The position numbers and the translations under genes were made by a program. A stretch of DNA of 5,222 nt from a bacterium (GTDB lineage: Bacteria; NPL-UPA2; JAGMAN01): assembly GCA_023130215.1 (NCBI GenBank), contig JAGMAN010000021.1, positions 1 through 5,222 of the forward strand, given 5' to 3'. This document shows, in pieces, positions 2,930-5,222 of the stretch; the first letter of the stretch is position 1; each line of letters opens with the position of its first letter. The notes beneath the pieces are model-generated. The model ran no database searches. It was not told where the DNA came from and saw only the letters and a list, made by a program, of their open reading frames with translations.

Positions 2930-2961
2930 AGACGCAAATACTCGGTTGTCAGGAGGTAAAA

Positions 2962-3120
2962 ATGACTCAGCACTCCAGCCTAAAATCATCGGCCGGCCGA
3001 CGTGGACAGCGTCGCAGCGTGCTCAAGCGTATGGAACGGCTGAAGATATTGAAAGAGGCGGGAAAATGGAAAGAGGGAGATCCTGTTTCTGGCCTTCCTA
3101 AGGTGAAACCGCAGAGATGA
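2962..3120 (+). CDS. Small basic protein, PVC-type (52 aa)
   Basis: A 52-residue protein starts at ATG 2962 and ends at TGA 3118-3120. AGGAGG lies 5 nt before the ATG and a good promoter lies further upstream, so expression is credible despite the short length. It reads MTQHSSLKSSAGRRG, then QRRSVLKRMERLKILKEAG, then KWKEGDPVSGLPKVKPQR. It has 15 Lys/Arg against 4 Asp/Glu, no Cys and no membrane segment. The arrangement of an N-terminal HSSLK, a central RxVLKRxER..LK..G.W, and a terminal GLPKxKP matches my recollection of the uncharacterised 'small basic protein' family of Chlamydiae/Verrucomicrobia (I recall it as TIGR04137). The charge suggests RNA or ribosome binding, but that is inference and no function is established to my knowledge. 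Its stop codon is one base from that of the convergent PilZ gene. A longer frame overlapping it (2901-3101) is a shadow. Confidence 0.85.
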   Translation: MTQHSSLKSSAGRRGQRRSVLKRMERLKILKEAGKWKEGDPVSGLPKVKPQR

Positions 3121-3121
3121 A

Positions 3122-3532
3122 TCAGCCAGAACAGCTATCTATCACATAATTCATGATTTTCTCGCGGTCATCTTCGCTAATACCGATGAAGGATACCCCA
3201 ACTCCGTATCTATTGGAATCCACTCTTCTTTTTCCCTCTACCCAGATCACTCTGGCCAAGACCTTGATAGGGCGAGAAACATTAGGGATATCTATCTGCA
3301 GAGAGAGAACGTGAGTCCCTCTGAGAAGTCCATCCAGCATCTTTGGCTTGAGAGGAGGTATCTCTAAGAACATTCCGCCTCCGCCAACACTTTTCGTCTT
3401 TGCCCTGTCAGTCCCAGTTGCTACCTTTCTTCTTCTGCTTTCCTCAATTACCTTGAACCGGACAGAGATAGGCTCCTCTGGCTCAAGTCGCACATACCTT
3501 CGCCTCTCTGACTCAAAATAATCGCTTCGCAT
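3122..3532 (-). CDS. PilZ-domain protein with degenerate second c-di-GMP motif
   Basis: A single PilZ domain of 136 residues, probably cytoplasmic. PilZ domains bind cyclic di-GMP and regulate motility, polysaccharide synthesis or secretion through partners. The first motif, RxxxR, is present in SERRRYVRL (R11...R15). The second motif, usually D/NxSxxG after a TK pair, reads TKSVGGGGMF (46-55), so the Asp/Asn and Ser positions appear to be Ser48 and Gly50. The C-terminal half, ARVIWVE (93-99) then RYGVGVSFIGIS (108-119) and a final helix, is typical of the fold. The start is ATG 3532-3530; an in-frame TAA lies 9 nt upstream, so no earlier start is possible, and the next Met (54) is too late. 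There is no Shine-Dalgarno. The ATG and first six codons lie inside the 60-bp repeat. The fold is confident; ligand binding is uncertain. Confidence 0.88.
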   Translation of the reverse strand: MRSDYFESERRRYVRLEPEEPISVRFKVIEESRRRKVATGTDRAKTKSVGGGGMFLEIPPLKPKMLDGLLRGTHVLSLQIDIPNVSRPIKVLARVIWVEGKRRVDSNRYGVGVSFIGISEDDREKIMNYVIDSCSG

Positions 3533-3574
3533 ATTATTTTATAACGTATTGGAAACTTTCAGTTTCCTATACTA
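3515..3574 (-). repeat. 60-bp repeat copy 1, over the PilZ start codon
   Basis: Read on the minus strand, 60 bp match 5136-5195 at 59 positions; the only difference is A (here, 3532) versus G (5178). Copy 1 holds two palindromes. The first is GGAAACT-GAA-AGTTTCC (3567-3551). The second has AAAATAAT/ATTATTTT arms around a GCGAAGC core and contains the PilZ ATG. The match stops sharply after the sixth PilZ codon and, at the other end, about 8 bases past the first hairpin. If PilZ transcription begins at the promoter near 3612, the whole unit is in the 5' leader. Confidence 0.93.
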
Positions 3575-3618
3575 CTAAATATGGCTTCTTTCTCATAAGC
3601 TGCCCGCTTCTCTTGGAT

Positions 3619-3647
3619 ACAATAACACTGCGGACAAATTATGTCAA
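3619..3647 (-). promoter_or_regulatory. Putative promoter of the PilZ gene
   Basis: On the minus strand a perfect -35, TTGACA (3647-3642), is followed by a 17-bp spacer and TATTGT (3624-3619; 4 of 6). The predicted start near 3612 would give a leader of about 80 nt containing both hairpins of the repeat. A TATAAA inside the repeat could alternatively give a nearly leaderless message. Confidence 0.6.
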
Positions 3648-3660
3648 TAAAAAATGAGGG

Positions 3661-3690
3661 TTGACTTCATCTTGCCTAAAATGATAAGAT
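3661..3690 (+). promoter_or_regulatory. Putative promoter of tRNA-Ala
   Basis: TTGACT at 3661-3666, an 18-bp spacer and TAAGAT at 3685-3690. The predicted start, near 3697, is just before the mature tRNA 5' end at 3699, so the precursor would have a very short 5' leader. It diverges from the PilZ promoter, whose -35 lies 14 bp to the left. Confidence 0.6.
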
Positions 3691-3698
3691 TTAGGAGC

Positions 3699-3771
3699 GG
3701 GGCAATAGCTCAGTTGGGAGAGCGGTACGTTCGCAACGTACAGGTCGGGGGTTCAAATCCCCCTTGCTCCA
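3699..3771 (+). tRNA. tRNA-Ala (anticodon CGC)
   Basis: A complete cloverleaf can be drawn. The 7-bp acceptor is GGGGCAA/TTGCTCC, the D stem GCTC/GAGC, and the anticodon stem GTACG/CGTAC with loop TTCGCAA. The T arm has a 5-bp G/C stem with loop TTCAAAT. Anticodon CGC (3732-3734) reads GCG (Ala). The acceptor has a G-U pair at position 3:70, the classical alanine identity element, which independently confirms the assignment. The discriminator is A at 3771. The next bases are CTA, so CCA is not encoded and must be added enzymatically. No obvious terminator follows before the next promoter at 3804. Confidence 0.97.
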
Positions 3772-3803
3772 CTAGCTTAGCTACGCCGAAAGTCAATTGG
3801 AGG

Positions 3804-3832
3804 TTGACAATAAAATTAATATGGGTTAAAAT
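3804..3832 (+). promoter_or_regulatory. Strong sigma-70 promoter of the TolB-like lipoprotein gene
   Basis: A perfect TTGACA (3804-3809), a 17-bp spacer, and TAAAAT (3827-3832, 5 of 6). The predicted start, near 3839, lies just before the AGGAGG at 3844-3849. The same hexamers and spacing recur before tRNA-Thr. Confidence 0.8.
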
Positions 3833-3843
3833 CATCTATGGTT

Positions 3844-3849
3844 AGGAGG
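3844..3849 (+). promoter_or_regulatory. Ribosome binding site deciding the lipoprotein start
   Basis: AGGAGG lies 9 nt before ATG 3859 and 6 nt before an in-frame GTG 3856. It lies downstream of the ATG at 3838, which coincides with the predicted transcription start and therefore is unlikely to be used. Confidence 0.75.
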
Positions 3850-3858
3850 GTTGATGTG

Positions 3859-4929
3859 ATGAGTGCGCCGAGTAAAGTTCCCGGGAAGATAGTTCTGACG
3901 ATGCTTGCCTTAAGTTTCCTGCTTGGATGCGCCGGGGAGGAGGAGCGGGCAGTTGGGGGGCCTCGCCGGGTGGGGCAGGAGAGTATAAAGGAAACCAGGC
4001 CGCCGGCAGAAGAGAAAAAGATTCCAGAGAGATGGCAGATTACCTCTGGTCCTGGCTACTATTCCTTCCCGGCCTGGTCGCCGGATGGAAAGAAGATAGC
4101 TTATACCTGCTACCGAGAGGAAAAGCAGGATATCTGGGTGGTGGAGGTTGATGAGGATGGCAAACCAAAGGGGGAGGCAGTCAACCTCACTAACTCTCTT
4201 AGCATAGATGAGCATCCTTCTTGGTCCCCGGATGGAAAGAAAATTGTTTTTCATTCAAACAGAGAAGGCAAAAGACAGCTCTTTGTTATCGATGCTGATG
4301 GTGGTAACCTGAAACTCCTCTACAGTCATGAGAGAGAAACAGAGAAGGAAATGGGGACAGAAACAGGGGTAGAGAAGGAGCTCAAACTGGTCACCCGAGA
4401 ATGCTTTAATCCGGCATGGTCACCTGATCCAGATGGGGAGAGGATAGCTTTCGTAGCCGAGAATAATATCTGGGTGATAGATAAAGAAGGCAAGGAGGAA
4501 TCAAAGGATTGGCTCACCTCTTTCGGATACAATGACTATCCATCCTGGTCGCCTGATGGGAGCCAGCTTGCCTTCTATTCGGGAAACGGTATCAAACTGA
4601 TTGAGGTTGACACGAAAGAGAATAAAAGACTGACTGGCTCAGGAGGTATGAGGAGCGATTTTCCGGGATGGAGCAATTATCCGGCCTGGTCTCCTGACGG
4701 AGAAAGGATTGTCCTTGTCTCTAATAGGAAGAAGACCATAAAGGGAAAGGAAATAGAATACGACCTCTGGATAATTAAGGCTGATGGGACGGGGGAGGCC
4801 GAGTATCTAACTAACGACCGCTACCATGAGTATTTCCCCGGTTTCTCTCCTAAGGGGGATAAGATCGCTTTCCAATCTGGTTCTCACATCTGGATTATCT
4901 CCTTACCCGAGGAAATCTCGACTGATTAA
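3859..4929 (+). CDS. Lipoprotein with six-bladed TolB-like (PD40) beta-propeller
   Basis: A 356-residue exported lipoprotein ending at TAA 4927-4929. The N-terminus has a Lys, a hydrophobic run (11-22) and the lipobox LLGC with Cys24 as the lipid-modified residue, followed by a charged, Pro-rich linker to about 56. Six PD40/WD40-like units, with cores of the SPDGxxIAF/W type, begin near 71, 120, 185, 228, 275 and 327. They make one six-bladed propeller of the kind that forms the C-terminal part of TolB. Unit 3 has an extra Pro-Asp (WSPDPDGERI). A Glu/Lys-rich insert (about 157-180) separates units 2 and 3, and the last unit is weaker (FSPKGDKIAF). There is no N-terminal TolB domain, and no Tol-Pal genes are adjacent, so calling it tolB would overreach. 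A periplasmic or outer-membrane-facing protein-binding role is inferred. It has its own promoter and terminator, so it is probably monocistronic. Confidence 0.9.
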   Translation: MSAPSKVPGKIVLTMLALSFLLGCAGEEERAVGGPRRVGQESIKETRPPAEEKKIPERWQITSGPGYYSFPAWSPDGKKIAYTCYREEKQDIWVVEVDEDGKPKGEAVNLTNSLSIDEHPSWSPDGKKIVFHSNREGKRQLFVIDADGGNLKLLYSHERETEKEMGTETGVEKELKLVTRECFNPAWSPDPDGERIAFVAENNIWVIDKEGKEESKDWLTSFGYNDYPSWSPDGSQLAFYSGNGIKLIEVDTKENKRLTGSGGMRSDFPGWSNYPAWSPDGERIVLVSNRKKTIKGKEIEYDLWIIKADGTGEAEYLTNDRYHEYFPGFSPKGDKIAFQSGSHIWIISLPEEISTD

Positions 4930-4944
4930 TAAGCCGGGAAATGT

Positions 4945-4973
4945 AAAAAGCCTTGCAAAAAAAGGCTTTTTTT
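4945..4973 (+). terminator. Intrinsic terminator after the lipoprotein gene
   Basis: Arms AAAAAGCCTT (4945-4954) and AAGGCTTTTT (4962-4971) form a 10-bp stem with a 7-nt A-rich loop. A run of seven T (4967-4973) overlaps the 3' arm. It begins 15 nt after the stop codon. The GC core is only three pairs (GCC/GGC), so efficiency may be moderate. It isolates the lipoprotein gene from the tRNA-Thr unit. Confidence 0.88.
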
Positions 4974-4994
4974 CTTGGGAAAATGAGAATTTCC

Positions 4995-5023
4995 TTGACA
5001 GGATAGTCTGTGCAGGGTAAAAT
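4995..5023 (+). promoter_or_regulatory. Strong sigma-70 promoter of tRNA-Thr (and probably the next gene)
   Basis: TTGACA (4995-5000), a 17-bp spacer, TAAAAT (5018-5023). The predicted start, near 5030, gives a tRNA precursor with a leader of about 22 nt. No terminator is seen between tRNA-Thr and the gene at 5210, so read-through into that gene is likely. Confidence 0.85.
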
Positions 5024-5051
5024 GAAGTTTTGCCCTGATTGAATGGGGATT

Positions 5052-5127
5052 GCCCATGTAGCTCAGCCGGCAGAGCACATGCATGGTAAGCATGAGGTCA
5101 CCGGTTCAACCCCGGTCATGGGCTCCA
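5052..5127 (+). tRNA. tRNA-Thr (anticodon GGT)
   Basis: The cloverleaf is complete. The acceptor GCCCATG/CATGGGC pairs perfectly, the D stem is GCTC/GAGC, and the anticodon stem is CATGC/GCATG with loop ATGGTAA. The T stem is ACCGG/CCGGT with loop TTCAACC. Anticodon GGT (5085-5087) reads ACC (Thr). The discriminator is T at 5124 and CCA is encoded at 5125-5127, unlike the tRNA-Ala in this window. A tRNA-Thr just upstream of an elongation-factor Tu gene is a known bacterial arrangement, which bears on the partial gene at 5210. Confidence 0.97.
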
Positions 5128-5135
5128 ATGGTTTA

Positions 5136-5195
5136 TAGTATAGGAAACTGAAAGTTTCCAATACGTTATAAAATAATGTGCGAAGCGATTATTTT
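5136..5195 (+). repeat. 60-bp repeat copy 2, between tRNA-Thr and the next gene
   Basis: The second copy of the unit found inverted at 3515-3574 starts 9 bases after the tRNA-Thr CCA. It carries the 17-nt palindrome GGAAACTGAAAGTTTCC (5143-5159). It also carries a second hairpin, with arms AAAATAAT (5170-5177) and ATTATTTT (5188-5195) around GCGAAGC. The unit ends exactly where the Shine-Dalgarno AAAGGAGGTG begins. G at 5178 replaces the A of the PilZ ATG and leaves an in-frame GTG. The orientation relative to the following gene is the same as for copy 1. Confidence 0.93.
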
Positions 5196-5205
5196 AAAGG
5201 AGGTG
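5196..5205 (+). promoter_or_regulatory. Near-perfect Shine-Dalgarno sequence
   Basis: AAAGGAGGTG matches almost the full anti-Shine-Dalgarno complement; its GGAGG core ends 6 nt before ATG 5210. This suggests a highly translated product. It abuts the 3' arm of the repeat's second hairpin, so folding of that hairpin could affect its accessibility. Confidence 0.85.
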
Positions 5206-5209
5206 CAAG

Positions 5210-5222
5210 ATGCCCAAGCAGA
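5210..5222 (+). CDS. Start of a gene, MPKQ..., possibly EF-Tu or ribosomal protein L33
   Basis: Only four full codons (Met-Pro-Lys-Gln) and one further base (A) are inside the window. The start itself is well supported by the strong Shine-Dalgarno and by position after tRNA-Thr with no terminator between. Bacterial EF-Tu proteins often begin MAKxKF and L33 proteins MxKxR; the fifth codon starts with A, which allows Lys or Arg. In several lineages, including Chlamydiae as I recall, tRNA-Thr precedes tuf. Identity cannot be decided from the bases given. Confidence 0.6.

Follow-up and report, generated by a model that had tools for sequence, protein, structure and literature searches.

A 61-bp two-hairpin repeat of an NPL-UPA2 bacterium is probably a PATE-type mobile element and may provide start codons to host genes

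The window analysed here, a 5,222-nucleotide stretch of bacterial DNA (contig JAGMAN010000021.1, lineage NPL-UPA2), carries two copies of a 60-bp sequence that belongs to a repeat termed F1. Comparison with related genomes indicates that this repeat is a recent mobile insertion. Most probably, F1 is a 61-bp non-coding and non-autonomous mobile element of the PATE type, which would move as a folded single strand by means of an IS200/IS605-like enzyme acting in trans. Together with a second repeat, F2, it would belong to a superfamily of two-hairpin elements in this lineage, as one of its branches. At pilZ and at the gene of a UPF0280-like protein, the element appears to have cut the native reading frame and to have provided the start codon from which the gene is now read.

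The two copies of the window, at 3515-3574 (-) and 5136-5195 (+), are inverted relative to each other and identical at 59 of 60 positions (98%), as the original prediction had described. A search of the whole genome with the 60-mer (G000; 1.01 Mb in 136 contigs, 90% complete, with the window as contig C51), which that prediction had proposed, revealed five more copies, one each on contigs C101, C100, C96, C93 and C68. All seven copies are full length, and the five outside the window are identical over the 60-mer; looser pattern searches of G000 found no degenerate or partial copies at the thresholds used. Taken together, the 60-base match and the five further copies exclude chance as the source of the repeat. 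Pattern searches with the 60-mer and the hairpin cores yielded no further copy in 145 relative genomes, phages, plasmids and viral contigs, and a literature search with the element sequences gave no match.

Two sister species of the same genus (G001 and G002) made it possible to read the vacant site at four loci, namely pilZ, the UPF0280-like gene, ispE and the C68 locus, each of which displays a clean insertion of about 61 bp with at most one ambiguous duplicated base. The pilZ site reads ATGAGAAAGAAGCCATATTTAGAGTCAGAG in G002 and differs by one base in G001; the relatives thus share ATGAGAAAGAAGCCA(T/G)ATTTA-GAGTCAGAG, a stretch that is split by the element in G000. At the UPF0280-like gene, the relative has ATGTAT-CAACCAAGG and G000 has ATGTAT-[TAGTATAGG...TTATTTTG]-CAGCCAAGG, which corresponds to an insert of 61 bp with zero duplication, and the insertions of about 61 bp at hisG/ispE and on C68 leave one ambiguous G each. 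A fifth empty site is the tuf spacer of G001, which is element-free, whereas a clean vacant site could not be read in the sister species for the C101 and C96 copies. The vacant orthologous sites indicate that F1 was recently acquired at these loci and is not an inherited leader. The two copies of the window are 1561 bp apart, and for each of them a relative shows a separate vacant site; gene conversion, which had been offered as one source of their identity, is not needed to explain it. Near-identical 60-bp repeats in a fragmented metagenome-assembled genome are a classic pattern of assembly or binning artefacts such as adapters, chimeras or foreign contigs, yet this explanation is scarcely credible here, given that the copies lie inside contigs with both sides contiguous in the sister species, carry copy-specific mutations, and have F2 relatives in independent assemblies.

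Two of these spacers differ in other ways among the sister species. Where the window has copy 2, the spacer between tRNA-Thr and tuf of G002 (contig C100) contains a different hairpin-like sequence of about 60 nt (AGTCCATGGTCCATAGTTAAAAGATTTTAGCCATCGACCATGGACTATTGACGATAG), suggesting that the spacer may be a recurrent place of hairpin insertion. An insertion in the hisG-ispE spacer of G001 was considered as a relative of F1 and rejected, as it consists of a gene for a TPR-like protein (contig C133) and unrelated sequence. Only the apparent last codons of this gene are seen on C100 of G000 and C96 of G002, from which it was probably deleted.

The F1 unit is 61 bp long in most copies, with a terminal G that is replaced by A in copy 2. 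The layout of the majority sequence is TA, hairpin 1, GTTAT, hairpin 2 and G, so that hairpin 1 starts 2 nt from the left end and hairpin 2 stops 1 nt from the right end. Hairpin 1 is predicted as GTAT-A-GGAAACT-GAA-AGTTTCC-A-ATAC and hairpin 2 as AAAATAA-(T)-GTGC-GAA-GCGC-TTATTTT, both with a GAA loop, and two hairpins are predicted on either strand of each window copy. These folds agree with the original prediction, which had proposed GGAAACT-GAA-AGTTTCC and a second hairpin with AAAATAAT/ATTATTTT arms. Compared to shuffled sequences, the 61-mer is far more stable, with z-scores of -5.0 to -5.8 as DNA and -3.8 to -4.6 as RNA. Covariation is weak, comprising one C-G/T-A change and one mismatch column and being matched by 63 of 500 shuffles; the structural argument therefore rests on the folding energy and the shared layout. 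There is no complementarity between the ends TAGTATAGG... and ...GCTTATTTTG, which hence form no terminal inverted repeats, and F1 has neither these repeats nor the target-site duplication of a classical MITE of a DDE transposon. Within the 60-mer, two substitutions were seen, C53A in both window copies and, additionally, G43A in the pilZ copy. The latter is the single mismatch of the window (3532 / 5178, element position 43), which had been assigned to a predicted bulge of hairpin 2; it does fall at the bulge in these two copies, but in the majority sequence, with C at position 53, the bulge shifts to T42.

At pilZ and the UPF0280-like gene, F1 sits in the coding region, just within its 5′ end, and the native frame is cut by the TAG of the element. 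By inspection, every frame of F1 meets a stop within the first 16 bases, and start codons (ATG or GTG) occur in two of the frames close to the right end. An insertion just inside the 5′ end of a gene would thus cut the native frame and allow a restart in two of the three phases. The native pilZ frame runs MRKKPYLVV before the TAG, so that MRKKPYLVV* gives way to MRSDYFESERRR, in which the element-derived MRSDYF is joined in frame to ESERRRY, a segment that is conserved in the same frame in G001 and G002. The start codon of this frame, which copy 1 was correctly predicted to contain, results from G43A, a change that turns the GTG at 43-45 of the other F1 copies into ATG in the pilZ frame and abolishes the ATG at 41-43. 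The mismatch is accordingly better explained by the apparent creation of a start codon for PilZ than by a structurally neutral bulge. In the UPF0280-like gene (on C93), the native frame reads MY-stop, and reading from the element ATG at 41-43 yields MCEALIL followed by QPRIYRDW; MY* is replaced by MCEALILQPRIYR. We infer that the element start codons are used in both genes, where they appear to be the sole intact starts for the rest of the gene. Upstream of the UPF0280-like gene (C93, about 5773-5813 of locus L012), there is a promoter-like TTGACT-17-TATATT that is nearly identical in G001. It lies very close to the native ATG, which suggests a probably leaderless ancestral mRNA, to which the insertion added a 5′ leader. 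The features of the window are compiled in Table 1.

Table 1. Coordinates of the F1 copies and associated features in the window.
Feature	Position	Strand	Remark
F1 copy 1 (61 bp with terminal G), within the 5′ end of the pilZ coding region	3514..3574	-	59/60 match to copy 2; vacant sites in relatives
Hairpin 1 of copy 1, GAA loop	3546..3572	-	predicted fold
Hairpin 2 of copy 1, GAA loop, reaching the right end of the element	3515..3540	-	predicted fold
ATG opening the pilZ frame, from G-to-A at element position 43	3530..3532	-	GTG in the other copies
Remnant of the native pilZ start, MRKKPYLVV followed by TAG inside the element	3567..3596	-	
PilZ-domain protein, putatively read from the start codon of the element	3122..3532	-	PF07238, 1.9e-9
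Promoter-like TTGACA-17-TATTGT of pilZ, upstream of the insertion	3619..3647	-	region conserved in G001 and G002
F1 copy 2 (terminal base A), between tRNA-Thr and tuf (EF-Tu)	5136..5196	+	spacer without element in G001
Hairpin 1 of copy 2	5138..5164	+	predicted fold
Hairpin 2 of copy 2	5170..5195	+	predicted fold
tRNA-Thr (GGT)	5052..5127	+	8 bases before copy 2
Ribosome-binding site and first codons of tuf (EF-Tu), gene cut by the window end	5196..5222	+	relatives have ATGGCCAAGCAGAAATTTGAGCGCAAG there

The covariance model of F1 also recovered weaker matches, which constitute a distinct repeat, F2 (CCGTATAGGAAATTATAAATTTCCCATACGATAGTAAGTTGCGAGGCGATAGCCGAGCTAACTTG and variants). Its basic form is 65-69 bp long, with longer versions in G007, a genome from another family of the same phylum, and, through an extended loop, on C93 and on contig C21 of G001. 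At least 11 copies were counted, five in G000, five in G001 and one in G007, all counts being lower bounds. F1 and F2 share hairpin 1 (GTATAGGAAA...TTTCC.ATAC) and the overall layout but differ in hairpin 2, and the models are reciprocal, as that of F2 recovers the F1 loci. The search of relatives suggested in the original prediction thus came out negative for the 60-mer itself and positive for related sequences in G001 and G007. No match to F2 was found in phages or plasmids, and its two 18-mer matches in viral contigs look like chance. The F2 copies on C93 (L012:11231-11313) and on C21 of G001 (L119:3039-3125) have the same extended hairpin-1 loop (CTTGTGCCCGTAAGGGTG) with different hairpin-2 variants, which suggests recombination between F2 variants. 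F2 copies occur at gene starts and gene ends alike; those at the end of a murG-like gene (L122:4957-5021) and of a gmk-like gene (C93, L012:11231-11313) overlap the 3′ ends and appear to supply the stop codons.

The left flanks of both repeats resemble the right ends of the repeats themselves. When the left-flank octamers were compared with the last eight bases of the element, 36 of 56 positions matched for F1 (14.7 +/- 3.4 for random local octamers) and 58 of 88 for F2 (22.4 +/- 4.0), values reached in 0 of 20,000 draws in either case. The left flank is mostly TTTTCTT(G/A) in F2; in F1 it is T-rich and usually ends in a purine, with only the T at -3 invariant. This likeness, combined with the lack of a real target duplication, is the signature expected for an element that joins 3′ of a short target word. 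IS200/IS605 elements are known to insert 3′ of a tetra- or pentanucleotide, and both terminal inverted repeats and target duplication are absent from them (PMC7290912). F1 inserts cleanly beside a T-rich stretch resembling its own right end, and we propose that it moves as a folded single strand, of which one hairpin would serve an HUH (Y1) enzyme, supplied in trans, as a handle at the left end and the other as a handle at the right end. A landing just inside a 5′ end would cut the native frame and could restart it from the start codon of the element, as is read from the sequence at the UPF0280-like gene and at pilZ, the latter tuned by G43A, and purifying selection after landing would keep the copies in leaders and at gene edges. 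Target selection through pairing with the 5′ arm of hairpin 2 was also considered as a model and is contradicted by F2a.

Among known systems, F1 is most readily compared with the PATEs (palindrome-associated transposable elements), derivatives of IS200/IS605 elements that carry no transposase; ends-only forms of 52 bp were described in Haloquadratum (PMC3119063). Like these, F1 is short and non-coding, has no terminal inverted repeats and at most one ambiguous duplicated base, and bears palindromes near both termini; unlike them, it is bacterial, came with no parent IS605-type element or Y1 transposase in the searches made, has two hairpins that differ from each other, extends hairpin 2 to the last base but one, and displays a loose target preference. 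The SMRs (small mobile repeats; PMC3119063) are likewise tiny and transposase-free, with no target duplication and a mobilisation that is unknown, but possess terminal inverted repeats that F1 lacks. The Rickettsia palindromic elements also enter reading frames and become parts of proteins (PMC10969869); however, they are about 150 bp long and fused in frame through the gene, whereas F1 cuts the native frame and restarts it from a codon of its own.

The original prediction had further suggested a small mobile or REP-like element. Its first part is borne out, recent spread being indicated by the seven full-length copies, the vacant sites and F2; membership in the REPs is not. F1 does share with the GTAG/CGTC REPs and REPINs a small, hairpin-based, largely intergenic and species-specific nature, and REPs can supply TAG stops and occur at ORF 5′ ends (PMC3733652). 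Nevertheless, a true REP of a RAYT system is very unlikely: the foot of the hairpin has no unpaired 5′ GTAG/GTGG or CGTC tag, and GTAG is present in only four of seven F1 copies, where the motif takes its G from the flank and overlaps the stem. In addition, F1 combines two different hairpins in tandem rather than a single hairpin or an inverted pair, does not pair in inverted orientation as a unit, and occurs as seven dispersed singletons, a low copy number. A RAYT, which is a Y1 protein, was not found in G000 by the PF01797 search.

Several findings weigh against the PATE-type reading. The PF01797 search (E up to 0.1), which matches E. coli in the control set, gave no Y1 transposase in the 90%-complete G000, G001 and G007 not having been checked. 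Likewise, neither a confident TnpB Zn ribbon nor IS110 was found in G000, and no parent insertion sequence with F1 or F2 ends was seen. The F1 left flanks are loose, without a fixed tetranucleotide, and by hand comparison the F2a left flanks, TTTTCTTR, fit the end of F2b better than their own end, CTAACTTG. Moreover, the use of the element start codons is read from sequence alone. Since no Y1 protein was found, we infer the mobilising enzyme and use the PATE label as a working classification; a PATE-like behaviour of F1 has better support than its origin from an IS605 element. There is a small chance that the two-hairpin superfamily is instead moved by an enzyme other than the known Y1/RAYT proteins, one that would choose sites resembling the right end and restart translation at gene starts.

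Alternatively, a serine or tyrosine site-specific recombinase, IS607- or integron-like, might move F1 as a double-stranded circle with a short core, without an HUH enzyme. We regard this as unlikely, even though the likeness of left flank and right end is what a recombination core would produce and the same base flanks the 60-mer on both sides in five of seven F1 copies. In F2, the left base is G or A and the right base always G, and near-terminal hairpins are unneeded by such a mechanism. A large serine recombinase of 549 aa is indeed encoded in G000 (C26:3138-3584), between an ATPase-like and an apparent miaB-like gene, and perhaps marks an integrated element. However, no F1 or F2 copies and no other link to these repeats were found on contig C26, and seven scattered, loose sites are unlike the behaviour of a large serine integrase.

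Each of the seven F1 copies overlaps a start codon or is no more than 60 nt away from one, and six are co-directional with the gene, the ispE copy being reversed; orientation and distance had been named as informative in the original prediction. The downstream genes are unrelated, comprising tuf, pilZ, ispE and genes of a peptidyl-prolyl isomerase, a UPF0280-like protein and an aldolase-like protein, and copy 2 is directly followed by AAAGGAGG (5196-5203), as had been noted. In the 84 kb of examined sequence from which the position statistics were drawn, 91% is coding, and 40% of the intergenic bases are found no more than 60 nt upstream of a start. The gene-start bias of F1 is nominally significant (0.4^7, about 0.002), but the test is post hoc and selection alone could yield the bias. 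These positions, a stable RNA fold and promoter-like sequences upstream at pilZ and tuf, and by eye also on C93, C68 and C96, are compatible with a riboswitch- or thermometer-like regulatory leader RNA that was duplicated before several genes and kept by selection. Such an origin is nonetheless quite improbable, as the copies are identical in sequence rather than conserved in structure with variable sequence, the orthologues of the sister species have no such leader, one copy is reversed and two interrupt coding regions, the downstream genes are unrelated, and no Rfam model is matched. With F2 present at gene 3′ ends as well, the leader role that had been suggested stands only as a consequence of position, and regulation by the hairpins in mRNA is possible.

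Elsewhere in the window, a short frame at 2961-3119 (+) encodes a very basic protein of about 52 aa with no Pfam match, which we take to resemble the “small basic protein” family of Planctomycetes/Chlamydiae relatives.

Altogether, the comparison with the vacant sites of sister species resolves insertions of a very small mobile element in a phylum that is uncultured, and the resemblance between left flank and right end makes the mechanism testable in vitro. The element is of an ordinary kind; its wider interest lies in the apparent hand-over of start codons at two genes and in a mobilising enzyme without a match in G000. For gene callers, the annotated N-termini of the PilZ and UPF0280-like proteins would be element-derived. 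The two genes would thus illustrate how a small element is absorbed at the 5′ end of a gene by start-codon hand-over, with a single-base change fitting it to the frame of the host.

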